From assembly GCA_027012135.1 (NCBI GenBank), contig JALUZF010000225.1:1-33015 (forward strand): DNA of 33,015 nt, read 5' to 3'. Position numbers and translations under genes: made by a program. Positions 1,135-24,098 of this stretch are shown piece after piece. The notes below the pieces were generated by a model. The model did not search any database and was not told where the DNA came from. It was given only the letters and a program-made list of their open reading frames with translations. The first letter of the stretch is position 1. Each line of letters opens with the position of its first letter. The stretch comes from Gammaproteobacteria bacterium. GTDB taxonomy: Bacteria; Pseudomonadota; Gammaproteobacteria; GRL18.

Positions 1135-2609
1135 TGGATAACATTGTTCTACTGGTTGTTTTACCCTTACTGGCGGCGTTTTTAATGCCGGTACTGGCAC
1201 GCTTTTCTGAGGTTGTGGCACGGGTGCTGGGACTGTCAGTGCTGGTCTTTGCTATTGCAATTATTATCAATGTCTGGCCGCAGGTAAATAGTCAGGCAAC
1301 ATCTATTGCCATTGGCGGATTTATGCCGCCCATAGGCATCAGCTTTTATGTGGATCAGGTTTCGATATTATTTGCACTGGCAATTCCGGTTATGGTGTTA
1401 TTATTCTGGCCCTGGCAGCGTAAAACTTCCATCCGTGAATATTCCCTGATGATGTTATTAACCGCTTCTTCTTCCGGTCTGGTGCTCAGTGGTGATCTGT
1501 TTAATATCTATGTCTTTTACGAACTGCTGGCTGTAGCCTCCTATAGCCTGATTGCCGTACAGGGACGGGCTGTCAGTATTGCCGCTTCCTTCCGCTACCT
1601 GTTAATGGGCAGTGTTGGTTCAGTTATGATGCTGCTGGGCATTGCCATTATTTATACTCAGACAGGAACCCTGAATCTGGCTCACCTGTCCCTGCTGGCA
1701 CCGCTACATCTGGATAATATGGCCGGGCTGGCCGCCTTTGCCCTGATCCTGGTGGGTATGGGGGTTAAGGCCGAGCTGTTTCCAGTCAACAACTGGGTGC
1801 CGGAAGTGTACGGTTCCGTGTCCAGTAATCTGGCGGCACTGATGGCGGGTTTATTATCCAAGCTGGCCGTCATTGTTGTTGTCCGAATTATGGTATTACT
1901 GTTCCCTCAACCTGAAGCAATGCAGTTAATGGCTATGCTGGGGATTCTGGGCGTTATTACCGGCGAGCTGGTGGCCTGGCGTGCCAGAGATTTTGTGCGC
2001 ATGCTGTCATTTTCCTCTATTGGCCAACTGGGGCTGATATTTCTGGCCTTTTCCATTCCAGGAGATACAGGCATGATGGCAGGTATCGCTCTTGCTCTGC
2101 ATCATATGGTGGTTAAACCGGCCCTGTTTATGCTGGCGACTGGCTGGTCCGGGTCGCTGGAAAATCTGTCTGGCGTAGCACGGCGTTCGCCACTGACCGT
2201 ATTACTGTTTGTGCTGTTAATCCTGTCTCTGCTGGGTATTCCACCTCTGCCGGGATTCTGGGCTAAATATCTGCTGATGGTGGGGCTGGCTGGCCAGGAC
2301 AGTGCTGTCTATACCCTGGGTATGATAGCGGTACCTCTGGCTATGATTGTTGAAATAGCCTATCTGTTCCGTCTAGTGATGATTATGTATCGCAAAGAAG
2401 ATACTGTTAAGGTTAAAGCCCATTCAAAATGGGGGCTGGCTATTGCTGCATCGGCTGGCGCGGCGTTAATTGCCATTGTCCTGCAGTTACAGCCTGCCGG
2501 CGATAAGCTGACAACACTGGCGCAGCAGTTAAGTGACCGAAATTACTATATTATGACTGTTTTTCCACAGTTCCATACAGCTGAAACCGGGATGCAAAGT
2601 ATAAAATGA
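1134..2609 (+). CDS. MnhD/NuoN-like proton (sodium)-conducting antiporter subunit (H type)
   Basis: Large polytopic antiporter-like subunit of 491 residues (Proton_antipo_M family), homologous to MrpD and NuoL/M/N. Hallmarks are visible: the glutamate helix YVFYELLAVASYSLIAV, the lysine helix GMGVKAELFPVNNWVPEVYG, the histidine/lysine helix LALHHMVVKPALFMLATG, and the loop PPLPGFWAKYLL. These charged residues form the ion pathway in complex I and Mrp relatives. It overlaps both neighbours (TAATG upstream, ATGA downstream), so all subunits should be made together. Whether Na+ or H+ is moved cannot be decided from the sequence. Confidence 0.92.
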   Translation: MDNIVLLVVLPLLAAFLMPVLARFSEVVARVLGLSVLVFAIAIIINVWPQVNSQATSIAIGGFMPPIGISFYVDQVSILFALAIPVMVLLFWPWQRKTSIREYSLMMLLTASSSGLVLSGDLFNIYVFYELLAVASYSLIAVQGRAVSIAASFRYLLMGSVGSVMMLLGIAIIYTQTGTLNLAHLSLLAPLHLDNMAGLAAFALILVGMGVKAELFPVNNWVPEVYGSVSSNLAALMAGLLSKLAVIVVVRIMVLLFPQPEAMQLMAMLGILGVITGELVAWRARDFVRMLSFSSIGQLGLIFLAFSIPGDTGMMAGIALALHHMVVKPALFMLATGWSGSLENLSGVARRSPLTVLLFVLLILSLLGIPPLPGFWAKYLLMVGLAGQDSAVYTLGMIAVPLAMIVEIAYLFRLVMIMYRKEDTVKVKAHSKWGLAIAASAGAALIAIVLQLQPAGDKLTTLAQQLSDRNYYIMTVFPQFHTAETGMQSIK

Positions 2610-4561
2610 GTGTACTAGACGATTTATTACTGTTTACTGCGCTGGCCTCGGTGGCCATTATCGTAGTCAGACGTTTTGCTTCGGTCAGCAAGCTGTCCGT
2701 AATAGTGTACGCTCTGGCTACTGTACTGCTGGTAAAAATGTCAGCACTGGGTTATGGCGGCGAACCAATTTATTCCAGTTTTACCCTGAATGTACTGGGT
2801 CAGAATCTGTACTGGCGTTTTGATTCTCTGTCCTGGTTTTTTGCTCTGATCACGGTAGTGATAGCCCTGTTTACCTCGGTATTTATGAGCGGTGCCTGGG
2901 CTGAAAAATACTGTCAGGAACATTCCACAGAAGCCTACGGTTTATTACAGGCGGCACTGGTGCTGAACGTGCTGTCCATGCTGGTATTACTGGCCAGCGG
3001 TGACTTGCTGTCATTGTTTATTGGCTGGGAGCTGGTCAGCTGGGCCAGTTTTATGATGATGTTCCTTAACCAGGATAAAGTGGCTCGTAAAGCGGCTATA
3101 AAATACATTGTCTATGCGATGGCTGCTGCCATGTCTATCCTGATGGCGATTGCCATGACTTATAGTATGACCGGCTCACTGGATTATGTTCAGATTATGC
3201 AGGCTGTTGCCCATCTGTCCAATACCCAGATTGCCCTGCTGGTTACTTTATATGGCGTTGGTTTCGGTATTAAAATGGGTGTGATTCCATTTCATCTCTG
3301 GCAGGCAGCAGCTTATGCGGAAACACCTGGCCCTGGTGCCGTGTTTATGGGGGCTATTTCTGCCCGCATGGGCCTGTATGCACTGATCGTGATAGTGGTA
3401 CAGATTTTCAGTCTGACCCGGGTAGCAGCTATTGAAATTCCCTATACTTTTCTGAATATGCAAAATATACTGGCCTGGGTGGGTGCATTAACTACCATTA
3501 TTCCTACTTATATTGCACTCAAGCAGAATGATGCCCGTTATCTGCTGGCCTGGCATGGTGTCGGACAGGGCGGCTATATGCTGCTGGGGGTTATGATTGC
3601 AGATAGTATTGGTACTGCCGGAGGCATTATGCATGTCTTTAACTACGCAACTTATCAGGCGGCCCTGTTTATGGCCGTGACTGCGGTTATGTTTCGTACA
3701 GGCACCTCCAATTTCAGCAAACTTGGTGGTCTGGTTACCCAGATGCCCTTAACCTTTATGGTGATGGTGGTGAGCATTATCGGCCTGGCCGGTATTCCGC
3801 CAATGAATGGTTTTGTATCCAAATGGCTGGTCTATCGTGCTTTATTGCTTGACGGGGAGCCGTTGTTATTTGTTGCAGCAGTCATCGGAACCTTAGGTAC
3901 CATTCTGTCCGTTTATAAACTGGTACACAATACTTTCCTTGGGCAGTTACGTCTGGAACACCAGGACGTAAAAGAAGCGCCACTGAGTATGTTATTGCCT
4001 ATGCTGGGCCTGGTACTGATTATTTTCGGTACAGGTGTTATGCCCGGTGTGGTTCTGGACTGGGTAGCCGCAGCACAAAATGCTGTGGGAATTGCCCCGA
4101 TTACCCATAATCTGGGGGGTATTGAACTGGCTCAGGGTGGTCTGGATATGATATGGGTCACTGGTGTTATGTTCTATGGTTTTGCAGTGGGTGCTATTGT
4201 ATTTTACTTCCTGGGCGGTAAGTCTAAACATATTCATCAGTTTGACAATTATGCCGGGGGACATTTCCTGACCTCCAAAGTCCGTTATCACTATAGTAAT
4301 CATTTTTATGCCGGTCTTATGCATTTAATTGGCGGCTGGTATAAGGACTTCTTTAAGAAACTGGAACAGGCACTGGTTTCACTGGTTAGCTTCCTGTCAC
4401 AGTTGTCTGAAAATTTTTATCGTTCAGCCCAGCCGGCCGTGCTGGTAGCGGCAGTAGCCTTTATTGCACTGTGGTTTATCATGAGCAGCTTTAGTATGCC
4501 AGCTGATACCGGTACTGTTGCCCCCATAACGCAGGGTATCCAGGGAGGGCTGCCAAAATGA
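2606..4561 (+). CDS. Second antiporter-like subunit, NuoL/HyfB-like (H' type)
   Basis: Second and longer member of the antiporter family in the operon (651 residues). It has the conserved glutamate (LFIGWELVSWASFMM), the lysine plus substrate-loop motif (GFGIKMGVIPFHLWQAAAY, then AETPGPGAVFMG), and the PPMNGFVSKWLV loop. After the membrane core, from about residue 545, comes a C-terminal extension with FDNYAGG and RYHYSNHFYAG, followed by an amphipathic stretch and a final membrane helix. That extension is typical of hydrogenase-4 B and Mbx H' type subunits and may lie laterally along the arm. Two H-type subunits in tandem fit the Mbx layout rather than Mbh, which has one. It overlaps the neighbouring genes by 4 bases on each side. 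Confidence 0.92.
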   Translation: MSVLDDLLLFTALASVAIIVVRRFASVSKLSVIVYALATVLLVKMSALGYGGEPIYSSFTLNVLGQNLYWRFDSLSWFFALITVVIALFTSVFMSGAWAEKYCQEHSTEAYGLLQAALVLNVLSMLVLLASGDLLSLFIGWELVSWASFMMMFLNQDKVARKAAIKYIVYAMAAAMSILMAIAMTYSMTGSLDYVQIMQAVAHLSNTQIALLVTLYGVGFGIKMGVIPFHLWQAAAYAETPGPGAVFMGAISARMGLYALIVIVVQIFSLTRVAAIEIPYTFLNMQNILAWVGALTTIIPTYIALKQNDARYLLAWHGVGQGGYMLLGVMIADSIGTAGGIMHVFNYATYQAALFMAVTAVMFRTGTSNFSKLGGLVTQMPLTFMVMVVSIIGLAGIPPMNGFVSKWLVYRALLLDGEPLLFVAAVIGTLGTILSVYKLVHNTFLGQLRLEHQDVKEAPLSMLLPMLGLVLIIFGTGVMPGVVLDWVAAAQNAVGIAPITHNLGGIELAQGGLDMIWVTGVMFYGFAVGAIVFYFLGGKSKHIHQFDNYAGGHFLTSKVRYHYSNHFYAGLMHLIGGWYKDFFKKLEQALVSLVSFLSQLSENFYRSAQPAVLVAAVAFIALWFIMSSFSMPADTGTVAPITQGIQGGLPK

Positions 4562-5448
4562 GCACTATCACTGAATTATTAACAGAACTGTTCTTAATGC
4601 CTCTGATTGCCTTTATGGTCGGACTGGCCATGGTGCTGATGTTGCGTAAAATAGGTGCCCGCCTGCAGCGACGAGTAGGTCCGCCTCTGTTACAGCCCAT
4701 CTTTGATATTGTGAAACTTTATGGCAAGGACACCCAGGTATCTCATGGTTTGATCCATGATATTGGGCTGGTTATGGCTGTGGGCGGTTATGTGGCAGCT
4801 GAAATATTTTTACCGGTACCGGGTATGGACGGTATTGCTGATAAGGGCGGTATTATTACCCTGTCCTATGTCATGATGGTTCCTTCCCTGGGACTGGCTT
4901 TGGGGGTTGGTCAATGTGCTAACCCTAACGGTTCAATTGGTATTTCCCGTGCTTTAACAGCCATGCTGGCCTATGACATTCCTTTTATTATTGTTGTCTT
5001 TGGTGTGGCGGCGCATTATCAGAGTACCTCTTTAGTGGGTATGATTGAATACCAGCAGGCACACCAGTGGGGTATTTTTGAAATGCCTTTACTGGCGGCG
5101 GCCGGCCTGTTTGCTCTGCAGGGTATGATGGGTAAACAGCCCTTTGAAATTTATGTGGCACCCGCTGAAATTGCCACCGGCCCCATGGTGGAAATGAGTG
5201 GTAAATACATGGGAGGCCTGTTTGTTATGCAGACATTCCAGTTATATACTGCCGGGGTTTTATACACCTCATTATTTCTGGGCGGCGGCAGTAACTGGTT
5301 TGAGTTTCTGCTAAAAATATTTGTGGTGGTTGCGATCCCCATGAGCGTGGCTTTTGTCTTTCCCCGTTACAGAACGGAAGATATGGTACGGATTATGTGG
5401 AAGTGGCCGGTTATGGCGGCTTTAATTGGGATAGCCTTTGTACTGTAA
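4558..5448 (+). CDS. NuoH/HycD-like membrane anchor subunit (M type)
   Basis: Membrane subunit that links the peripheral Fe-S arm to the antiporter arm, homologous to NuoH, HycD and MbhM (296 residues). Diagnostic segments are GARLQRRVGPPLLQPIFDI with KLYGK, the loop around CANPNGSIGISRALTAMLAY, and the acidic cytoplasmic loop PAEIATGPMVEMSGKYMGG. The last corresponds to the charged funnel entrance in complex I. The start overlaps the preceding stop (ATGA). A 54-base AT-rich gap follows before the NuoB-like gene, the first real break in this operon, with no convincing terminator in it. Confidence 0.93.
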   Translation: MSTITELLTELFLMPLIAFMVGLAMVLMLRKIGARLQRRVGPPLLQPIFDIVKLYGKDTQVSHGLIHDIGLVMAVGGYVAAEIFLPVPGMDGIADKGGIITLSYVMMVPSLGLALGVGQCANPNGSIGISRALTAMLAYDIPFIIVVFGVAAHYQSTSLVGMIEYQQAHQWGIFEMPLLAAAGLFALQGMMGKQPFEIYVAPAEIATGPMVEMSGKYMGGLFVMQTFQLYTAGVLYTSLFLGGGSNWFEFLLKIFVVVAIPMSVAFVFPRYRTEDMVRIMWKWPVMAALIGIAFVL

Positions 5449-5502: not shown

Positions 5503-6204
5503 ATGAGCAAAATTGGCAATATTCCTGTTAATGCACAAGCTGGAAAAAAACGTACCAATCCCTTAGCAGGTGTGTTTGATGAGCTGGTTCAGTTCTGTCA
5601 GTCACGTTCCATGTTTATGCTGCATTATTGTACCGGCTGCGGGGCGATTGAATTACCCCCGGCTATGACCTCTCGTTTTGATATGGAGCGTCTGGGTATT
5701 CAGCCAATGGTGACACCGCGTCAGGCCGATATTTTGCTGGTGACCGGCTATGTTTCGGTGAAGACCCTGAAGCGGGTGATTCTGACCTATGAGCAGATGC
5801 AGTCGCCTAAATACGTTATTGGGATCTGTTCCTGTACGGTAAACGGCGGTATGTACTGGCAGAGTTATGCAACGGCCAAGGTTCTGAATGAATATCTTCC
5901 AGTTGATGTTTATATTGCCGGCTGTATGCCTCGCCCGGAAGCAGTTATTGAAGGGATGCGCCGCTTAATGAGAAATATTGAAGAGGGTAAAGGTCATGCC
6001 TGGAAAGATTATTTTCAGCGTTATGATTATTACCTGGGCAATCAGCAGCACCTGTTTGGTGATGACTGGCAGACACCAACGGATATTATTGGCGAAGCCA
6101 GACATTATGGTCTGGAAACTGAGCAGACTTATGGTGAGCATACCAGAATTCTGGAGCAGCATCAGCAGCCTCTGGAACCACATAAAATGCGTATTAAGTT
6201 TTAA
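5503..6204 (+). CDS. NuoB/hydrogenase small-subunit-like Fe-S protein (J type)
   Basis: Peripheral subunit that should bind the proximal [4Fe-4S] cluster next to the large subunit (233 residues). The candidate ligands are C43 and C46 (HYCTGCGAIELPP), C109 or C111 (GICSCTVNGGMYW) and C141 (AGCMPRPEA). The CxxC arrangement of the first pair is the hydrogenase/Mbh/Mbx type; true complex I NuoB has adjacent cysteines. Residues ~160-233 form a longer hydrophilic tail than in minimal NuoB proteins. No strong ribosome site precedes the ATG at 5503; the start is chosen from protein alignment logic. A 70-base gap with a small CCCTG/CAGGG dyad separates it from the NuoC-like gene. Confidence 0.92.
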   Translation: MSKIGNIPVNAQAGKKRTNPLAGVFDELVQFCQSRSMFMLHYCTGCGAIELPPAMTSRFDMERLGIQPMVTPRQADILLVTGYVSVKTLKRVILTYEQMQSPKYVIGICSCTVNGGMYWQSYATAKVLNEYLPVDVYIAGCMPRPEAVIEGMRRLMRNIEEGKGHAWKDYFQRYDYYLGNQQHLFGDDWQTPTDIIGEARHYGLETEQTYGEHTRILEQHQQPLEPHKMRIKF

Positions 6205-6274: not shown

Positions 6275-6844
6275 ATGAATTGTGAAGAAATTAATCTCTG
6301 GTTAGATACCTTACTGGCAGAAATAGAAGAAATTGAAGTAACCCGAAAAAGTGAACGGCGGGTACGTGTGGATGTGCCTGCCAGTTCTTTGCCGGCCTTA
6401 CTGGAATTACTGAAAGGTAAAGCTTCCTATGTACATCTGTCGGCTATTTCCTGTGTGGACTGGCCGGATGATGAAGAATTTGAACTGGTTTATCACTGCT
6501 GGTCCTATGAAGCAAAATCCTTGTTGTCTGCTCACACCCGGATCCCACGCAACTCTGCACAGGAATTTGCCCACTACGTGTCTGTCTATGATATTTACAA
6601 GCCGGCGGCATTTTTTGAGCGCGATATTTATGAAATGTACGGCATTTATTTTGAAAGCAGTCCATACATGGAAAAATTTATCCTGACCGAATGGAATGGG
6701 CCACCACCCATGCGTAAGGATTTTGATGCTGAGCAGTATGTCAACGATACCTTTAACTGGGCCGATTATCATCCTCAGTGGTTACAGGAACTTGAAGAAG
6801 ATGGCGGTGGAATTGCCGTCAGGCCGGAGGATATTCGTCTATGA
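6275..6844 (+). CDS. NuoC-like 30 kDa subunit (K type)
   Basis: Soluble structural subunit homologous to NuoC/HycE N-terminal domain and MbhK (189 residues). Family signatures are the central FELVYHCWSYEAKS strand, the FERDIYEMYGIYFE motif (equivalent to the EREAYDLFGI motif of NuoC), and the C-terminal PPPMRKDFDAEQY. It carries no cofactor in related complexes and packs against the NuoD-like subunit. It is encoded separately from the large subunit, whereas in many group 4 hydrogenases the two are fused. The last four bases overlap the next gene (ATGA). Confidence 0.9.
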   Translation: MNCEEINLWLDTLLAEIEEIEVTRKSERRVRVDVPASSLPALLELLKGKASYVHLSAISCVDWPDDEEFELVYHCWSYEAKSLLSAHTRIPRNSAQEFAHYVSVYDIYKPAAFFERDIYEMYGIYFESSPYMEKFILTEWNGPPPMRKDFDAEQYVNDTFNWADYHPQWLQELEEDGGGIAVRPEDIRL

Positions 6845-7983
6845 GGCCGGAGAATTATCAGCTCGTAGCACTACCTAATAGCGATGAATATGAATTATTT
6901 ATCGGGCCTAATCACCCAGGTATTGAAGGTAATTATGCCTTTAAACTGAAACTCGATGGAGACCGGGTGATTTCCGGTAAGGCCGATGCAGGCTATCTGC
7001 ATCGAGGTTTTGAAAAACTGATGGAAGGTCGCCTGTGGATACAGAACCTGGCGATTGTGCCGCGGATCTGTGTGCCCGACCCAGTACCCATGGAAGTGGT
7101 TTATTCGCTGACGGTAGAAGATATTGAAAAAATGGAAGTACCCCTGAGGGGGCAGTGGATCCGGGTTATGCAACTGGAACTGTCCCGCATCGCTTCGCAT
7201 TTATTTACTTTTGGCGGTCATGCGGCAACCACCGGTATGTACACACCCAGTTACTGGGGAGTAGCGGATCGGGATCTGGCGCTGGATCTGTTTGAAGAGT
7301 TAACCGGCGGCCGGGTTTATCATATTTACAATATTCCCGGTGGAGTACGCAGAGATATTCCCAATGGTTTTCTGGATCGTTTAAGTGATTATCTGGACTA
7401 TCTCGAAACCCGTCAGAATGATTATGACAATTTATTGTTTACCAATCAGGTATTTGTAAAACGTGCTCGTAATGTAGGTGTGATCAATCAGGAACAGGCC
7501 CTGGAATGGGGTGTTACCGGGCCGAATCTAAGAGCCACAGGACTGGCCTTTGATGTTCGTCGAGATGATCCTTACCTGATTTATAATGAGCTTGATTTTG
7601 AAATTCCGACCCAGACAGCCGGTGACTGCCTGGCACGGATTCTGGTACGTCGTGATGAGCTGTTTCAGAGTGTACGGATTTTAAGACAGATTATTAAACA
7701 CCTGCCTTCAGTCAAAGGGCCGGTACGTGCACCCATTCCTAATCCGCTGGCCTGGAATGTCTCCATGGGTGAAAGTTATTGCCGGGTAGAATCCTCCAAG
7801 GGTGAGCTGGCCTATTACACAGTGTCCGATGGCGGCCCTAAACCGTACCGGGTGCATGTGCGCGGCGCATCCTCCATGCATGCTGTACAGGTACTTGAAA
7901 ATATGGCTGTAGGTCAGCGTATTGAAGATATTGCTCAAATTATGTTTTCTCTGGATGCCTGTCCTCCTGAGGTGGATCGTTAA
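6841..7983 (+). CDS. NuoD/NiFe large-subunit-like protein lacking full NiFe site (L type)
   Basis: Catalytic-position subunit of 380 residues, homologous to NuoD, HycE and MbhL/MbxL. The N-terminal family motif GPNHPGIEG and the GYLHRGFEKLMEGR segment are intact. A NiFe hydrogenase needs four cysteines in two CxxC pairs. Here the first pair reads RICVPD (C77, with D80 in the second position) and the C-terminal pair reads DACPPE (C374, with E377), so only the first cysteine of each pair survives. H2 chemistry is therefore unlikely. True complex I NuoD has lost all four, so this is neither hydrogenase nor standard Nuo. From memory, archaeal MbxL/MbsL also keeps two cysteines used in sulfane chemistry, which makes polysulfide a candidate substrate; that is inference. 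The start overlaps the nuoC-like gene and the stop overlaps the next ATG. Confidence 0.92.
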   Translation: MRPENYQLVALPNSDEYELFIGPNHPGIEGNYAFKLKLDGDRVISGKADAGYLHRGFEKLMEGRLWIQNLAIVPRICVPDPVPMEVVYSLTVEDIEKMEVPLRGQWIRVMQLELSRIASHLFTFGGHAATTGMYTPSYWGVADRDLALDLFEELTGGRVYHIYNIPGGVRRDIPNGFLDRLSDYLDYLETRQNDYDNLLFTNQVFVKRARNVGVINQEQALEWGVTGPNLRATGLAFDVRRDDPYLIYNELDFEIPTQTAGDCLARILVRRDELFQSVRILRQIIKHLPSVKGPVRAPIPNPLAWNVSMGESYCRVESSKGELAYYTVSDGGPKPYRVHVRGASSMHAVQVLENMAVGQRIEDIAQIMFSLDACPPEVDR

Positions 7984-9845
7984 TGAAAAAGATAAAATAT
8001 GAAGATATTGGCAGCATTCTTAATCCACTGAAAAATCTACAGTTTTTTGCCCGCAAGCCAGTAACTGAACCACTTGGTCCCAGACCGGCCGCAGAAATTT
8101 ACCGTGGTTTCCATCTTAATGATATGGAAAAATGCATTGGCTGCAGTACCTGTCAGAAGATCTGCGATAATGCGGCTATTACCATGGTCAAGGTGCCGCA
8201 TTTAAAAAATGATCCGGTAAATGGCATACGTAACCTGCGTCCGGCCATTGACTACGGCCGCTGCTGCTGGTGTGCCTTATGTGTGGACATCTGTCCAGTG
8301 GGTGCTATTGAACTGTCCCGTGAATATGTGCATACCTGCAACGGAGATGAAGTCGATAGCTATTTTATGCTGCCGCAGGAAAAAGGCATGCACGGTACTG
8401 TGGAAGAAAAAGGCTGGACTAAAACAGAAACCAATGATCTGCTGGATCGGCATCGCCAGAAAATGGGCGAAATGGCACCGGAAGAGCGGGTAGATAATTT
8501 TGATGAAATTGTAGACGGCTTTACACCGGAACAGGCTGTACTGGAGGCATCCCGCTGTGTGCAATGCGGTATGTGTCATGATTCCTGTCCTACCCATATG
8601 CATGCACCGGAATATATCCGTGCCATCTGGAAAGGCAATGTGGAAGAAGCGGTGGAATGGATGTATGAAACCAATCCCTTCTCACATGTCTGCGGACGGG
8701 TCTGTACCCATCGCTGTGAAACCGCCTGTTCTCTGAACCAGACCGGACTGCCCCAGGGCAGTGAACCCATTGCCATTCGCTGGCTGAAGCGCTATGCCAT
8801 GGATGCGGTTCCCCATGAACGTATTAAGGAAATTGCCGCCAGCAAAAAATCGGCGACCAGAACAGGCAAAAAAATTGCCATTATTGGTGCCGGGCCTGCG
8901 GGTCTGACCGCCGCTTTTGACCTGATTAAACAGGGTCATGAAGTGCAGGTGTTTGAAGCTCTGGCTAAAGCCGGTGGAATGACCCGCTACGGCATCCCTT
9001 ATTATCGTCTGCCCGATGATATCCTGGAGCGGGACGTGGATGTTATTCTCTCCATGGGTGTTAAGATTCAATACAATACCCGTATCGGCAAAGACATTGC
9101 CATGGAACAGCTGCATAAAGACTACGATGCCGTTATCCTGGCTATTGGTCTGCAATCGGGGCGCTCTACCCGTATCCCCGGTTCTGATCATAAAGATGTC
9201 CACAGTGCCGTAGAGCTGCTGCGAAAAATCGGCAGTGTCCGGGATGATATAAAAGCAGAAAAAGATCCGGGTTTTGAAATACCCCGTTCTGCGGTGGTTA
9301 TTGGCGGAGGTAATGTGGCCATGGATATTGGCCGTTCCCTGGCGCGTTATCAGAAACAGCAGTATGGTGAGGTCAATATGACCATTACCGCCATTGATGC
9401 CATGGAAAATTTCCCCGCTGATGATGTTGAAATTAAAGAATCACTGGAAGAAGGCATCACCATTATTCCATCCCGAGGCCCGCAGGAAGTTATGCTGGAA
9501 AACGGCAGGGTAAAAGGCCTAAGAACCTGGAAAGTCATCTCAGTTTTTGATGATGACGGCCGCTTTGCTCCCCAGTACGACGAGTCCGATGAACAGCTAT
9601 TTGAAGCCGAAATGGTTATAGAAGCCATTGGTCAGATGGCTGAAACCGATCTGCTGGGCGAAGAACTAACGGAACAACTGGAATGGCAGCGCGGCAGAAT
9701 CAAGGTAACTGAAGACGGTGCCACCTCAGTTGACTGGCTATGGTCAGCGGGTGACTGTGTTAACGGACCGGATGTGGTTCATGCGGTTGCGGATGGACAT
9801 CGGGTGGCCGAGAGTATTAATGAAGCGCTGAGTGTTGAGCGCTGA
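7983..9845 (+). CDS. Fusion: NuoI-like 2[4Fe-4S] ferredoxin + GltD/NfnB-type NAD(P)-FAD oxidoreductase
   Basis: A 620-residue electron-transfer protein, probably the entry/exit subunit of the complex. The N-terminal part has two ferredoxin clusters: C51-C54-C57-C61 and C94-C97-C100-C104, as in NuoI/MbxN. After a ~85-residue linker comes a GltD-type Fe-S domain (C192, C195, C198, C202 and C237, C241, C245, C249). Next are an FAD-binding GAGPAG at 302-307, AGGMTRYGIPYYRLP, a second dinucleotide fold GGGNVAMD at 441-448, and a C-terminal SAGDC (FAD) motif. GltD-like proteins move electrons between NAD(P)H, FAD and Fe-S partners. The second fold lacks the usual YRR-type arginines, reading AIDAMENFPADD instead, so NADH preference or altered binding is possible. 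The final codons and stop lie in one arm of a long inverted repeat. The domain assignment is strong; electron direction is unknown. Confidence 0.93.
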   Translation: MKKIKYEDIGSILNPLKNLQFFARKPVTEPLGPRPAAEIYRGFHLNDMEKCIGCSTCQKICDNAAITMVKVPHLKNDPVNGIRNLRPAIDYGRCCWCALCVDICPVGAIELSREYVHTCNGDEVDSYFMLPQEKGMHGTVEEKGWTKTETNDLLDRHRQKMGEMAPEERVDNFDEIVDGFTPEQAVLEASRCVQCGMCHDSCPTHMHAPEYIRAIWKGNVEEAVEWMYETNPFSHVCGRVCTHRCETACSLNQTGLPQGSEPIAIRWLKRYAMDAVPHERIKEIAASKKSATRTGKKIAIIGAGPAGLTAAFDLIKQGHEVQVFEALAKAGGMTRYGIPYYRLPDDILERDVDVILSMGVKIQYNTRIGKDIAMEQLHKDYDAVILAIGLQSGRSTRIPGSDHKDVHSAVELLRKIGSVRDDIKAEKDPGFEIPRSAVVIGGGNVAMDIGRSLARYQKQQYGEVNMTITAIDAMENFPADDVEIKESLEEGITIIPSRGPQEVMLENGRVKGLRTWKVISVFDDDGRFAPQYDESDEQLFEAEMVIEAIGQMAETDLLGEELTEQLEWQRGRIKVTEDGATSVDWLWSAGDCVNGPDVVHAVADGHRVAESINEALSVER

Positions 9846-9981: not shown

Positions 9982-10482
9982 ATGACAATCACACCCTCAG
10001 GTAAAGACAAACTCAGTTCCTGTTCCACCTTACAGGATGTTCTGAAAGTGGCTACAGAGTTTGAACGGACGGCCAGGGATTTTTATGCGGCGCTGGCGCC
10101 TAAGGTCAGTAAGCGTATTCGTTATCTGGTGGATGAGCTGGTGGTTGAAGAACAGGCGCATTATGATCTGTTTACCAAACTGGCTAATGATCCGGAAGTT
10201 GAAAAGCAGATTAAGCAGGAAATTAATCTGCCGCCCAGTAATAAGCGGTTTTCAGACTGTATTCAATTACCTGATCTGGGTGACAATCCGGACGATCAAA
10301 GTATTCTGCAATATGCCCTGGGGCGGGAGCAGGCAGCCATGGATCAATATCATGCCCTGGCAGAAAATGCTCCTGAAGGTCCGTTAAAAGATGTCTTTAC
10401 TTACCTTGCTCAGGAAGAAACCGAACATAAAAATGAGCTGGAAAAAATATATTATGAAGTAGTACATAGTGGTGGAGTGTAG
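9982..10482 (+). CDS. Ferritin-like/rubrerythrin diiron protein without rubredoxin domain
   Basis: A 166-residue cytoplasmic four-helix protein of the rubrerythrin/ferritin-like family. Likely diiron ligands are E28 (EFERTARDFY), E57 and H60 (VEEQAH), E116 (GREQAAMDQY), and E146 and H149 (QEETEH). It lacks the C-terminal rubredoxin domain of classical rubrerythrin, so an external reductant would be needed. Such proteins usually detoxify peroxide or handle iron; the exact reaction here is not predictable. It begins just after the heptamer array, with a modest AGG ribosome site. The HDOD gene follows after 13 bases, so the two may be cotranscribed. A role in protecting the nearby oxygen-sensitive Fe-S complex is a guess from position. 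Confidence 0.85.
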   Translation: MTITPSGKDKLSSCSTLQDVLKVATEFERTARDFYAALAPKVSKRIRYLVDELVVEEQAHYDLFTKLANDPEVEKQIKQEINLPPSNKRFSDCIQLPDLGDNPDDQSILQYALGREQAAMDQYHALAENAPEGPLKDVFTYLAQEETEHKNELEKIYYEVVHSGGV

Positions 10483-11547: not shown

Positions 11548-11817
11548 ATGCATTTAGGACTGGAACTGGTAATAACAGGAATGGGGACAGTTTTTGCGTT
11601 TCTTATCCTGCTTATTATTGTAACGACTCTTATGTCATGGGTCGTAAAGCGTTTTGAAACATCGTTTTCTGCTATTAGTGAAGCTGGGGTGAAATCAACT
11701 GATTCTACAGTTAAAGCTGAAGATAAAAAGGCCAGGAATCCTGACATGTCTTCTGAATTGTTAGCGACTATTGTCAGTTCAGCTATCCATAAACACCGTT
11801 CCAGGAGCAGGAAATAA
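11548..11817 (+). CDS. oadG: Oxaloacetate decarboxylase sodium pump, gamma subunit
   Basis: Small 89-residue membrane subunit that holds the OadA and OadB subunits together and, in studied enzymes, binds zinc through its tail. It has one N-terminal membrane helix preceded by [15 protein letters not shown], a typical OadG start, then a hydrophilic tail ending with HKHRSRSRK. An AAGG site precedes the ATG. The stop lies 1 base before oadA's ATG, and the gene order G-A-B is the usual one in gammaproteobacteria. Identity rests on both sequence and context. Confidence 0.92.
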
Positions 11818-11818
11818 T

Positions 11819-13684
11819 ATGTCAGAATTACACGGGACCAAATCAGAAAGCATATCAGGAAAGCCATTAGGAATAACTGAACTGGTTTTTCGGGATGCCC
11901 ACCAGTCTCTTCTGGCAACCCGCATGCGTCTGGATGATATGTTACCCATTGCAGAACAACTGGACGAGATTGGTTACTGGTCAATGGAATCCTGGGGCGG
12001 AGCCACGTTTGATGCCTGTATCCGTTACCTGGGAGAAGATCCCTGGGAGCGGATTAGAAAAATCAGGGAAGTTATGCCTAAAACCCCCCAGCAAATGCTG
12101 TTCAGAGGGCAGAATATTCTGGGTTATCGTCATTATGCGGACGATGTGGTGGAAAAATTTGTGCAGCGGGCAGCAGTTAACGGTATTGATGTATTCAGGG
12201 TCTTTGATGCCATGAATGATCCGAGAAACTTTATCACGGCCATCAAGTCAGTCGTGGCTCTGGGTAAGCATGCTCAGGCGGCCATGTCCTATACCACCAG
12301 TCCGGTGCATACCATTGAGCTGTGGCTGGATCTGGCCCAGCGCTTACAGGATATGGGCGCTCATTCCATCTGCATTAAGGATATGGCTGGCCTGTTAAAA
12401 CCCTATACGGCCTGGGAACTGGTGTCGGGTCTGAAAAAAGTGCTGGATATTCCGGTACATCTGCACTGCCATGCCACCACCGGGTTGTCTACTGCCAGTA
12501 TTATTAAAGCTATTGAAGCCGGAGTGGATAATGTTGATACTTCCATATCGTCTATGAGTGCAACTTATGGGCACTCTGCTACTGAATCTGTGGTGGCTAT
12601 TATGCAGGATCAGCCTGGTGACACTGGTCTGGATCTGCTTAAACTGGAAAAAATTGCCGCTTATTTCCGTGAAGTCAGGAAAAAATACCATCGTTTTGAA
12701 GGTTCATTAAAAGGCATTGATTCCAGGATCCTGGTGGCCCAGGTACCCGGCGGTATGCTTACAAATATGGAAAACCAGCTTAGAGAGCAGGGCGCTGCCG
12801 ACAAACTGGATCAGGTGCTGGAAGAAATTCCAAAAGTACGAGAGGATCTGGGGTTTATCCCCCTGGTGACACCCACCTCTCAAATTGTAGGCACCCAGGC
12901 TGTTATTAATGTTCTATCCGGTGAGTCCTATAAAACCATTACCCGTGAAACCGCAGGAGTGCTTAAAGGCGAATATGGAGCCTCTCCGGCACCGGTTAAT
13001 AAGGCATTACAACAGCGGGTACTGGAAGGTAAACAGCCGATTACGGTTAGACCTGCGGACATGCTGCAACCGGAAGTTGAAAAGCTAACCCGGGAATTAA
13101 AACAGATTGCTGAGGGTCGGCAGATCAGGCTGGCGGCTGAACCGATTGATGATGTACTGACCTATGCCCTGTTCCCGCAGGTCGGTTTAAAGTTTCTGGA
13201 AAATCGCGGTAATCCGGCGGCCTTTGAGAAAAAACCGGAGCAGGCGGATGAAGCACAACCGGATAAATCCACAGGCAGTCGGAATGAACAGCAAAGCAGT
13301 GTTTATACTGTTACAGTGTCTGGACAAAGTTATGTTGTGGAAGTAGCCGAAGGTGGTGATATTAAAACACCGGTAGCGGCCGGATCACGAGCTGTTTCAG
13401 GTTCACAGACTGCTGCAAAACCCGATACCGCACGAGCAAAAGCACTATCAGCCGGTGAACTTATTCCGGCACCCTTAAGTGGCAACGTGGTTAAGGTGCT
13501 GGTTAAATCGGAACAGCAAGTGCAGGAAGGCGATGTGATCCTGGTACTGGAAGCCATGAAAATGGAAACCGAACTGCGCGCCGGTAAAGACGGCACTATT
13601 GTGGAAATCTGTGCTGCGGAAGGGGACAAGGTCAGTGTCGGTGATGCCCTGTATAAAATAAATTACACGGATAACCCGTCCTGA
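11819..13684 (+). CDS. oadA: Oxaloacetate decarboxylase alpha subunit (biotin carboxyltransferase)
   Basis: Cytoplasmic 621-residue subunit that transfers the carboxyl of oxaloacetate to biotin, releasing pyruvate. The N-terminal carboxyltransferase domain has the metal-site motif [14 protein letters not shown], the lysine motif [10 protein letters not shown], and the histidine pair in [10 protein letters not shown] middle PYC/OadA domain is followed by a proline/alanine-rich linker (about 465-540). The C-terminal biotinyl domain has EAMKMETE, with the biotinylated lysine at K581. The ATG at 11819 is chosen because it follows oadG by one base behind an AGGAG site; the frame extends upstream into oadG, with a TTG at 11771 that is less likely. 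The stop overlaps the oadB start (TGATG). OadA-type proteins also serve pyruvate or other decarboxylases, but the OadG/OadB neighbours settle the role. Confidence 0.95.
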
Positions 13685-15111
13685 TGGAAAATATTTTCCG
13701 TATCTGGGAAGGCTCCGGGATTTATAATATCAGTCCGGGACAGGCTGTAATGATCCTGGTGGGGCTGGTATTACTGTTTCTGGCCATTCGCAAAAAATTT
13801 GAGCCTTTATTATTATTGCCCATTGGTTTTGGGGCCATTCTGTCTAATATACCCGGTGCTGGAATGTCTGAACCTGCAGCACTGCAGGCCTTCAATCAGG
13901 CACTCAACTACGAGCACCGGGTGCTGGAAGAATATATTGAAGAGAAGGGGCTTACTCAGCCACAGGCACAACGGCTTCAGTTTAAGAAGCTGCCGCCGGA
14001 GGTTCAGCAGTCCGGCAGTATTAAATCGGCTCAGTTGCTTAATGATATGCATCGTCTGCTGGCTAAGCCCATTGCAGAGGATTGCAAATCGGGCCGACTT
14101 TGCCATGAGGCATTTTATGCCGTGTACAATGGTGATGAAGTGCTGCATCATAAAATGAAATTACTGGCTGCCCAGAACAGTTTCAGTGACGGTATTTTAT
14201 ACCTGTTTTATCTGGTGGGACTGTCCAGCGGAGTATTTCCATTGCTGATATTTATGGGTGTAGGTGCCATGACTGATTTTGGCCCCCTGCTGGCCAATCC
14301 TAAAACCCTGCTGCTGGGCGGTGCCGCCCAGTTTGGTATTTTTGCTACTCTGGTCGGAGCCTTAATGCTGGGTTTCAGTGGTGAAGAAGCCGCTTCTATT
14401 GCCATTATTGGCGGTGCCGACGGGCCGACGGCTATTTACCTGACCAGTAAATTATCACCTCATCTGCTCGGTGCTATTGCCGTGGCAGCTTATTCCTATA
14501 TGGCTCTGGTACCTATGATCCAGCCGCCGATTATGCGTCTGTTAACGACTACAGAAGAGCGCCAGCGCAGTATGTCCCAGTTACGGGAAGTTTCTCAGAC
14601 TGAAAAAATTATATTTCCCTTAATGCTCTTGATTCTGGTGGGGCTGATCCTGCCGGAAGCCGCACCCTTGCTGGGTATGTTCTGTTTCGGAACCTTAATG
14701 CGTGAAAGCGGAGTTGTGGATCGGTTAAGTAATACCACCCAGAATTCACTGATTAACATTGTCACTATCTTTCTGGGGTTGGCGGTGGGTTCAAAACTGC
14801 AGGCCGAACAGTTTCTACTGTGGGACACTTTAAAAATTCTGCTGCTGGGGGTTGCCGCATTTGCAGTGGGCACTGCCTGTGGTGTGATTATGGCTAAAAT
14901 TATGCATCGTTTTACCAAAGAGGCTATTAATCCACTCATTGGATCGGCGGGTGTGTCTGCCGTACCCATGGCGGCCAGGGTATCCAATAAAGTCGGACTG
15001 GAAGCCAATCCGCATAACTTTCTGCTGATGCACGCTATGGGACCGAATGTAGCCGGGGTTATTGGTTCAACGGTGGCCGCAGGCGTGTTATTAAAATATT
15101 TTGGTGCCTGA
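13684..15111 (+). CDS. oadB: Oxaloacetate decarboxylase beta subunit (sodium pump)
   Basis: Membrane subunit that decarboxylates carboxybiotin and exports Na+ (475 residues). The key sodium-site motif [17 protein letters not shown] and the C-terminal [20 protein letters not shown] are intact, as is [17 protein letters not shown]. Between the first membrane part (to about residue 58) and the helix near residue 170 lies a hydrophilic stretch of ~105 residues, with two cysteines at 134 and 140. Enterobacterial OadB also has a soluble stretch here, so this is an enlarged version rather than a new domain. The total is roughly 40 residues longer than the ~433 usual in enterics. Translation is coupled to oadA by a one-base overlap. 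Confidence 0.95.
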
Positions 15112-21032: not shown

Positions 21033-24000
21033 ATGAGTAATAATGAACATCCGGATATAAATTCAGTGCCACTGGCCCGTCCCAAAGTTAATTCCCGGCG
21101 CAGTTTTTCACCCATCTGGATCCTGCCTGTTGTGGCGCTGCTGATTGGGCTGGGGCTGATTGTTGAAAGTTATCTTAGTGCCGGCATTATGATTACTTTA
21201 AAAGTGCGTACTGCCGAAGGCATTGAGGTGGGTAAAACCAGGGTCTTTTACAAGGGTATTACGACCGGGGTTGTGAAAAGCTATGAGGTGGCGGATGATC
21301 TGCAACATGTAATATTGCATATTGAAATGGATAAACGTACCGAACCCTATCTGAATGAAAAAGCCAAATTCTGGGTGGTAGAACCGCGTATTACCCTGTC
21401 CGGTGTATCCGGCCTGGATACTATTTTAAAAGGTCGTTATATCGCCATTGACTCTGAAAAAAGTGAAACCAGCAAAAGAGATTTTGTGGCTCTGGACAGA
21501 GCACCTCCGCCTTCGGGAAAAACACCGGGACTGCATATAAAACTGCGTCTGAACCGGCTGGCATCCGTGGACAGAGGAACCGTTGTCTTTTACAAGCAGG
21601 TACCAGTGGGAGAAGTTATTAACTATACCCTGGAAGAAAATGACTCCGAAATACACGCCTGGGTCGTGATCCGTCCCGAATATGCTCACCTGGTTAAGGA
21701 AAATTCCCGGTTTTATAATGTCAGCGGTATCAGTATCAAGGCCGGTTTAAATGGGGTAGAGATTAAAACAGAATCCCTGGTTTCCCTGCTGGTAGGAGGC
21801 ATTGCCTTTACCACACCGCTGGAGGAAAAACCGGCTCAGCCGGCTAAGCACGGCTCCCTGTTTTTATTATATGATGATTTTGAAAGTGCCCGTGTGGGAA
21901 TCCCGGTAATATTGCGATTTAAAAATATTGATTCCCTGGCAGCCAATCAGACCAAAATTAAATATCAGGGACAGGTCATCGGTCGTCTGGGTAAATTTGC
22001 CTATGACAGGAAGACTGATGAAAGCATCTGCGTTGCTAAACTGTCTCCGCTTGTGGCTGATGTGCTGACGGAAAATACCCAGTTCTGGATTGTTAAACCC
22101 AGCGTCAGCATTTTGAAAATCAGCGGGCTGGATGCTTTGCTGGAAGGTAATTACCTTGAACTGCGGCCCTCAGGTACCGGCAAGAAAAGTCGGGAGTTCA
22201 GGGTTTATGAATCAGTTCCGCCGTTGCCGGCCAGTGTGCCTGGTTTACACTTTACTATAGAATCAGAGGATCTGGGTTCTATCAGTAAGGATACCCCCCT
22301 GTATTACAAGAATATCAAGGTAGGTAATATTGAGTCTTTTAAATTGGCAGAGAATAATGAGAAAGTACAGTTGCAGGCCTATATTAAGCCGGAGTTTGCC
22401 CATCTGGTTACTGAATCAACCCGTTTCTATAATGTCAGCGGAGTTAATATCAAAGGTGGTCTGACGGGCATTAAAGTGACAACGGAGTCCATTGCCTCGC
22501 TACTTTCCGGCGGTATTGCTTTTTATTCGCCCAGCTACAAAAAAAGTGATATTAAAGCCAAAAACGGGGATGTATTCCCGCTCTATGACAGTTTTGATGA
22601 TGCTAAAGCCGGTATTGAGGTATCACTGATTTTTGATGATACCACCGGACTGACTGCTGATGTTACCAAGGTTATTTATAAAGGCATTGTGCTGGGTGTG
22701 ATTAAAAAAATCACCCCTAATACCGGTCAGGAAACTGCTACTGCAACGGTAATTATGGATCCCATTGCTGATTTTGGTCTGGTGGAAGATACCCAGTTCT
22801 GGATGGTCCGTCCTAAATTTGATATTACCGGTGTGGAAAATCTGGAAACCCTGCTGGCCGGTGATTATATTACAATGAGACTGGGCAAAAGTAAGAAGAA
22901 AAAGTACCGTTTTAAGGTCAGTATGACTAAACCGCCGCTGGATGCCAGTTATCCCGGACTGCATTTAAAGCTGAACAGTTCAGAGCTGGGATCGATTAGT
23001 ATTGGCGCCCCGGTTATGTACCACAGGATTAAGATTGGTAATGTACAGGATTATGAACTGGCGGCAGATGGAAAAAGTATTAATATTTTGATCTATATTT
23101 ATCCCAGGTATATGAATCTGGTTAGTCCCAATTCACGTTTTTATAATGCCAGTGGCTTTAAGGTAGAGATGGGCTTGTCAGGTTTGAGTGTTCGTACCGA
23201 ATCAGTTAAAAGCATTCTCAAGGGCGGCATTGGTTTATACAATGATGCCCGCTATGAGCCAGGGACCGGCAAACATAAAGTCCCCAATGGCACTAAATAC
23301 AGGTTATTTGATGATTATGAGGCTGCTCAAATCAATGCATTTTATGTCACTGTGCTGTTTGATAAAGTAGACGGCTTATCTTATGGCAGCAAGGTTATCT
23401 ATAATGATATTGAGGTAGGTAAGGTCAGGTCTGTCAAGCTCAGCCGCAAAGATGCAGAGAAAGTTGAAGTAAGCCTGGAGCTCAATGAACAGATTAAACC
23501 GCTACTGGGTAAGCGCTCCAGGTTCTGGGTAGTCAGGGCTGAATTTGGCCTGGCTAAAATTAAAAATGTGGGGAATTTAATCACGGGTAATTTTCTGCGG
23601 CTTGAACCGGTCAGGGGGCCTTTTAGTGATTACTTTATCGGTTATAAAGAAAAACCACTTAAAAAACAGTCTGCAGCCGGTTTTAATATTCACTTAACAG
23701 CCAGTCGCCTGGGTTCAATAAAAGTGGGTGACGGTGTTTATTATCGCCAGATTAAAGTGGGTGAAGTGGTGGGTTATGAGCTGGCCGATACCTCGGACCA
23801 GATTTTAATACACCTTACTATTCGTGAACGTTTCCGACCATTGCTGCGGGAAAACAGTCGTTTCTGGAATGCCAGCGGTATCTCTATGGATATCAATTTA
23901 TTCGGCCGTTCTAAAATCAGAACAGAATCGGTAGAATCTGTTCTTTCCGGCGGTATTGCTTTTGCCACTCCGGACAATGACGCCATGGGCAAGGAACTGT

Positions 24001-24098
24001 CAGAAGGCAGTTACTATATATTACATGATGAGCCTCAGCCGCAATGGCTGAAGTGGAATCCAATTATTCCTTTAAGCAGGGAAATACAGCAGAATTGA
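21033..24098 (+). CDS. PqiB/LetB-type MCE protein with eight MCE domains
   Basis: A 1021-residue periplasmic lipid-transport protein anchored by one N-terminal helix (about 27-46, after FSPIW). Eight MCE domains can be marked at about 53-140, 167-262, 291-380, 404-500, 528-618, 641-737, 771-860 and 883-980. They alternate strictly. Odd domains end in an FW(I/V/M)V-P-containing block and then a GLDxLLxGxY-like segment. Even domains contain RF(Y/W)N(V/A)SG and end in a TES-V-S-L-GGI(A/G) block. This implies four duplications of a two-domain unit. E. coli PqiB has three MCE domains and LetB/YebT seven, each stacking as hexameric rings to form a tunnel. Eight rings would give an extra-long tunnel. 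It follows two PqiA-like genes, its expected inner-membrane partners. No PqiC-like lipoprotein gene follows. Confidence 0.93.
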   Translation: MSNNEHPDINSVPLARPKVNSRRSFSPIWILPVVALLIGLGLIVESYLSAGIMITLKVRTAEGIEVGKTRVFYKGITTGVVKSYEVADDLQHVILHIEMDKRTEPYLNEKAKFWVVEPRITLSGVSGLDTILKGRYIAIDSEKSETSKRDFVALDRAPPPSGKTPGLHIKLRLNRLASVDRGTVVFYKQVPVGEVINYTLEENDSEIHAWVVIRPEYAHLVKENSRFYNVSGISIKAGLNGVEIKTESLVSLLVGGIAFTTPLEEKPAQPAKHGSLFLLYDDFESARVGIPVILRFKNIDSLAANQTKIKYQGQVIGRLGKFAYDRKTDESICVAKLSPLVADVLTENTQFWIVKPSVSILKISGLDALLEGNYLELRPSGTGKKSREFRVYESVPPLPASVPGLHFTIESEDLGSISKDTPLYYKNIKVGNIESFKLAENNEKVQLQAYIKPEFAHLVTESTRFYNVSGVNIKGGLTGIKVTTESIASLLSGGIAFYSPSYKKSDIKAKNGDVFPLYDSFDDAKAGIEVSLIFDDTTGLTADVTKVIYKGIVLGVIKKITPNTGQETATATVIMDPIADFGLVEDTQFWMVRPKFDITGVENLETLLAGDYITMRLGKSKKKKYRFKVSMTKPPLDASYPGLHLKLNSSELGSISIGAPVMYHRIKIGNVQDYELAADGKSINILIYIYPRYMNLVSPNSRFYNASGFKVEMGLSGLSVRTESVKSILKGGIGLYNDARYEPGTGKHKVPNGTKYRLFDDYEAAQINAFYVTVLFDKVDGLSYGSKVIYNDIEVGKVRSVKLSRKDAEKVEVSLELNEQIKPLLGKRSRFWVVRAEFGLAKIKNVGNLITGNFLRLEPVRGPFSDYFIGYKEKPLKKQSAAGFNIHLTASRLGSIKVGDGVYYRQIKVGEVVGYELADTSDQILIHLTIRERFRPLLRENSRFWNASGISMDINLFGRSKIRTESVESVLSGGIAFATPDNDAMGKELSEGSYYILHDEPQPQWLKWNPIIPLSREIQQN

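Follow-up and report, generated by a model that had tools for sequence, protein, structure and literature searches.

What does the large subunit of a [NiFe] hydrogenase-like pair do once each of its two metal-binding CxxC motifs has lost a cysteine? The question is raised by a gene at 6841–7983 in the 33,015-nt stretch of DNA analysed here (contig JALUZF010000225.1, positions 1 to 33,015, forward strand; hereafter the window), which encodes a NuoD-like large subunit of 380 aa (MbsL, or L for short). An earlier note had pointed out that this protein keeps exactly two of the four NiFe cysteines, C77 and C374, with D80 and E377 in the other places, and that the survivors are the first of each former pair. 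Both points proved exact: the translation carries the motifs R75-I-C77-V-P-D80 and D372-A-C374-P-P-E377, and alignment with Escherichia coli HycE (RVCGIC ... DPCYSC) puts C77 and C374 in line with the leading cysteine of the two pairs, with D80 and E377 where the second would be. None of these four residues varies among 31 aligned homologues (65–96% identity, from several orders) or in any other full-length copy that we inspected of the same form of L, here termed type A, so the pattern is not a matter of chance, but is real and conserved, and the invariance of the two cysteines within type A implies some constraint on them. Further cysteines of L (C263 and C314) lack conservation.

The view that this is not a hydrogenase also stands. 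The fold and ancestry of L and its partner subunit J are shared with group 4 [NiFe] hydrogenases such as MBH and HycE, but those enzymes have four NiFe cysteines and a C-terminal extension, and the window protein has neither: the second position of each CxxC pair is taken by an acidic residue (D80, E377), and L ends exactly at the arginine where hydrogenases are trimmed, while HycE continues beyond it. A group 4 enzyme can be ruled out on the missing second cysteines. A true NiFe hydrogenase large subunit is encoded elsewhere in the same genome.

The genes around L, all on the forward strand, give a clearer idea of its company. The window opens with a MbsF/MrpB-like gene (11–631; MnhB domain, PF04039), whose 5′ end is cut by the contig start (206 aa, compared with 264 aa in the homologue at locus L024). 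There follow genes for MbsG, a MrpC/NuoK-like subunit (643–1134; PF00420); MbsH, an antiporter-like proton pump of the MrpD/NuoN kind (1134–2609; PF00361); MbsH′, a second antiporter-like subunit (2606–4561); MbsM, a NuoH-like membrane anchor (4558–5448); MbsJ, the NuoB-like subunit for the proximal [4Fe-4S] cluster (5503–6204); the NuoC-like MbsK (6275–6844; PF00329); L itself; and MbsN (7983–9845), a NuoI-like two-cluster ferredoxin fused to a flavoprotein. The resulting order, F G H H′ M J K L N, is that of the sulfane reductase MBS of Pyrococcus furiosus. The last gene of the operon (9982–10482; PF02915) encodes a rubrerythrin-like protein of ferritin fold with no rubredoxin domain, and such a gene directly follows N in nearly all loci that reach that far, both of type A and of the sister form, type B, considered below. 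In relatives there are further Mrp-like subunits upstream, including MrpE-, MrpF- and MrpG-like genes at locus L071. A scan for promoters and terminators yielded no signal above chance with a bearing on L or its complex.

Is this simply a variant of complex I, an ordinary NADH:quinone oxidoreductase with an alternative NADH module? Pfam and NCBIfam assign L as NuoD-like, with PRK06075 (NuoD) above its cut-off; other subunits are homologous to NuoB, NuoC and NuoH; and the flavoprotein-fused N could serve as an NADH dehydrogenase module. Structural comparison was neutral. An AlphaFold2 model of L (mean pLDDT 73, with the cysteine loops in or beside the low-confidence stretches 50–76 and 375–380) gave, among the 50 VIA-align matches listed, complex I or NDH 49 kDa-type chains throughout, no MBS chain appearing among those 50, but since all the listed matches had similar Z the fold does not separate the families. 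The sequences do so more readily. The best solved relative of L is P. furiosus MbsL (6u8y_L, 400 bits), well ahead of Thermus complex I (243) and Pyrococcus hydrogenase (119), and the same holds for J (6u8y_J, 216 bits against 115 or less for others), M (6u8y_M, 185 against 60 for MBH) and H′ (6u8y_X, which is MbsH′, 206 against 141 for MBH); for N, no NuoI-type match in the PDB ranks above 6u8y_N. In a tree of L proteins, type A, type B and MbsL group together, separate from complex I (support 99/98), although the branches are long and the branching order inside this group is not to be trusted. In place of the histidine and tyrosine that hold the quinone headgroup in complex I (H38 and Y87), L has E29 and V78, and MBS, too, is reported to lack this histidine and tyrosine (PMC7684303); the loop in J is of MbsJ type and lacks the adjacent CC seen in complex I; there is no NuoE, NuoF or NuoG gene among the window's open reading frames; and a canonical NuoD is encoded separately in the genome. 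On the replaced residues, the loop in J and the tree we reject complex I, and we regard such a variant of it as decidedly unlikely. In our reading of these comparisons, the operon is of the bacterial MBS/MBX respiratory type, with 6841–7983 as its L subunit.

The kinship with the archaeal sulfane reductase that the earlier note had named is therefore accepted, the more so as MbsL shares the two cysteines and the acidic replacements (motifs RICVPE and NCPPD; C77 corresponds to C85 and C374 to C385). But are these cysteines the catalytic site? The same note had proposed that they form a polysulfide- or persulfide-reducing site or a redox disulfide, and their invariance in the 31 homologues, together with their presence in MbsL, speaks for some such persulfide-carrying or disulfide function. 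In the cryo-EM work on P. furiosus MBS (formerly MBX; 6u8y), MbsL C85 and C385, together with MbsJ C25, were the obvious candidates, lying about 12 Å from the proximal cluster, yet the C85A/C385A double variant and the MbsJ C25A enzyme both had wild-type activity with dimethyl trisulfide (PMC7684303). It was the removal by ferricyanide of the non-cysteinyl iron from the proximal [4Fe-4S] cluster, which has three cysteine ligands, that abolished activity, reversibly, and so identified the cluster itself as the catalyst (PMC7684303). The window's J aligns with 6u8y_J without gaps over the CTGCG loop, which thus has the length of that in MbsJ; its C46, C111 and C141 correspond to the MbsJ cluster ligands C28, C93 and C123 and are conserved in homologues, and its C43 corresponds to the spare, non-ligand C25. 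On this analogy, the cysteine pair is likely not to be the catalytic site: C77 and C374 are probably leftovers of the NiFe site that line the pocket, and their proposed role in reducing polysulfide lacks support. We consider it very unlikely indeed that they act as a persulfide-carrying site or redox disulfide. The measurements on the MBS variants used a soluble subcomplex and a model substrate (PMC7684303), which leaves room for the cysteines to matter in coupling or when natural polysulfide is the substrate; and, as type A loses neither of them, they may contribute to the structure of the pocket, to tuning or to coupling.

Independent support against the cysteine pair comes from type B, whose L proteins (46–48% identity to type A) occur in six further members of the window's family and in four more distantly related genomes (loci L013–L018 and L065–L068). 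Type B loci share the J-K-L-N-rubrerythrin genes with type A, including the same fused N, but C374 of L has become tyrosine (SLHTYPPEIER), C77 being retained, and C43 of J has become glycine (GTGCG), the three cluster ligands being retained. The expectation that both cysteines would be conserved in homologues with the same operon thus holds for all close homologues and fails for C374 in type B. It appears from these alignments that, of the three cysteines that the Pyrococcus enzyme can do without, type B has dropped two and kept the cluster ligands. Among 24 genomes of the window's family (G000–G023), type A occurs in nine and type B in six, and the two never occur together. The rubrerythrin tree, drawn from loci of both types in which this gene follows N (the window's 9982–10482, L069, L070, L077–L080 and L082–L084), groups by organism rather than by complex type (support 98/96), which suggests that a resident rubrerythrin gene stayed in place when the complex next to it was exchanged for the other type, and that both types of complex serve the same role. 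Two sister forms, one with two cysteines and one with a single cysteine, but with the same downstream genes, would provide a natural test of which residues of the NiFe site matter, with a bearing on the evolutionary path between hydrogenases and complex I. As a separate observation, solitary L genes, near which J, K and N were not detected, occur in two MAGs labelled Dichelobacter nodosus and Thiomargarita (L054:7986-9143 and L056:8001-9146).

The likeness to P. furiosus MBS thus extends over the set and order of the subunits present in the window, the two cysteines and acidic replacements of L, the absence of the quinone histidine and tyrosine, and the CTGCG loop and three cluster ligands of J. 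There are also differences: MBS is archaeal and ferredoxin-linked, its N being a 208-aa ferredoxin, whereas the window complex has a rubrerythrin-like gene after N, is carried by Pseudomonadota with dsrA, and, in what we take to be the main difference, has its N fused to a GltD/NfnL/DsrL-like flavoprotein that appears to be of NAD(H) type. According to Pfam, NCBIfam (PRK13984) and alignments, N comprises the two-cluster NuoI-like part, a Fer4_20 domain and an FAD/NAD(P) unit. Its second Rossmann fold has AID, ALE or AME, in both types, at the position of YRR in the Nfn-type relatives 4ylf and 9bov. In DsrL, which belongs to the same flavoprotein family as this half of N, YRR marks users of NADP(H), and the oxidative forms prefer NAD(H) (PMC7596348). 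Since it lacks YRR, N probably uses NAD(H), a specificity read from this one motif. Ferredoxin may be an electron partner of N. A predicted model of N is weak over its ferredoxin half and was left aside. Flavin bifurcation of the Nfn kind was set aside, as no second branch (NfnS-like, [2Fe-2S]) is seen in the operon.

Two known systems bear comparison with N. DsrL, the NAD(P)H:acceptor oxidoreductase of the reverse Dsr pathway, is likewise a GltD-like iron–sulfur flavoprotein, linking sulfur oxidation to NAD+, but it is a soluble partner of rDsrAB, outside any membrane complex (PMC7596348). Thermotoga maritima has MBX, a 13-subunit bacterial MBS homologue upregulated with S0 (PMC9431562), and somewhere in its genome, included here as a control, is a protein above the cut-off for the fused PRK13984 family, so the ferredoxin–flavoprotein fusion is not unique to the organisms considered here; Thermotoga, unlike the host of the window, is a thermophilic fermenter.

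Who carries the complex? By name, type A is carried by Thiocapsa, Lamprocystis, Thiohalocapsa, Sedimenticola, Thiolapillus, Thiohalobacter, Parasulfuritortus and others, many of them MAGs; named genera of sulfur oxidisers and purple sulfur bacteria are among the carriers. In an even sample of 398 Pseudomonadota, the L gene was present in six genomes (that of the window included) and dsrA in 52, and all six L-bearing genomes were among the 52. With the window's own genome left out, the comparison is five of five against 51 of 397, for which the chance would be about 3 in 100,000 if genomes were independent, as they are not fully. RuBisCO turned up in every type-A genome in which it was sought, but in none of the four more distant genomes with type B, which means that a tie to CO2 fixation does not hold generally. 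A putative Mrp-Mbx in Endoriftia, the symbiont of Riftia, was reported to be co-expressed with the rTCA cycle (PMC11636981), and would, judged by its name and that co-expression, be a complex of this kind in a sulfur oxidiser of the Gammaproteobacteria. The window's own genome, like those of several relatives, has two full-length dsrA-like genes (G000:C125:4371-5582 and G000:C137:19755-20966), for which the 4.6% contamination of this MAG is a possible cause.

The identities of the parts, their conservation, the gene order, the NAD-type motif and the association with dsrA together make it rather probable, to our minds, that the operon specifies an ion-coupled NAD(H):sulfane-sulfur oxidoreductase of MBS/MBX type, with catalysis at the proximal cluster; activity, substrate and direction are read from these features, and a close relationship with MBS is no proof that the substrate is shared. 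In such an enzyme, the flavoprotein half of N would bind NAD(H), and electrons would pass between this cofactor and the proximal [4Fe-4S] cluster of J by way of the FAD and iron–sulfur clusters of N. The cluster iron that has no cysteine ligand would make or break the sulfane S–S bond in a pocket formed by J, L and M, lined by C77 and C374, and this chemistry would be coupled to the movement of H+ or Na+ through H, H′ and the Mrp-like subunits. If this is right, an archaeal type of sulfane-sulfur respiratory complex, tied to NAD(H), has its place in dsrA-bearing Pseudomonadota.

In which direction might it run? NADH lies at about −320 mV and polysulfide at about −260 mV, so that with NADH as donor and polysulfide as acceptor little energy would be left for ion pumping, which weighs against an NADH-driven sulfur reductase; conversely, on these textbook potentials, the transfer of electrons from sulfide or persulfide to NAD+ would be cheap if driven by an ion gradient. 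Stored sulfur is known from related sulfur bacteria, and its reduction to sulfide at the expense of NADH could maintain redox balance in anoxic or dark metabolism. This would be the direction of archaeal MBS, and represents one of the two directions of the proposed oxidoreductase rather than another enzyme; it would accord with the link of MBS and Thermotoga MBX to S0 reduction (PMC7684303; PMC9431562) and with the co-expression reported from the Riftia symbiont (PMC11636981), but in DsrL a motif of NAD rather than NADP type goes with the oxidative direction (PMC7596348). The potentials, the NAD-type motif and the link with dsrA make it a serious possibility, which we put forward tentatively, that in sulfur oxidisers of the Dsr type the complex runs backwards, an ion gradient pushing electrons from sulfide or persulfide at the proximal cluster onto NAD+. 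Dark or anoxic sulfur reduction, to be held just as tentatively, is about level with it. Were the backward direction to be confirmed, the complex would supply NADH for CO2 fixation far more cheaply than reverse electron flow via quinol and complex I, and estimates of the cost of autotrophic sulfur oxidation would change.

Finally, we draw attention to some other genes of the window. Downstream of the operon (11771–15111) are oxaloacetate decarboxylase alpha- and beta-like genes (of Na+-transporting type by Pfam name), the beta-like protein having what seems to be an additional segment of some 100 residues beyond residue 60. Further on (21033–24098), a gene for a protein with seven MlaD stretches adjoins two PqiA genes, an arrangement resembling PqiAB/YebST.
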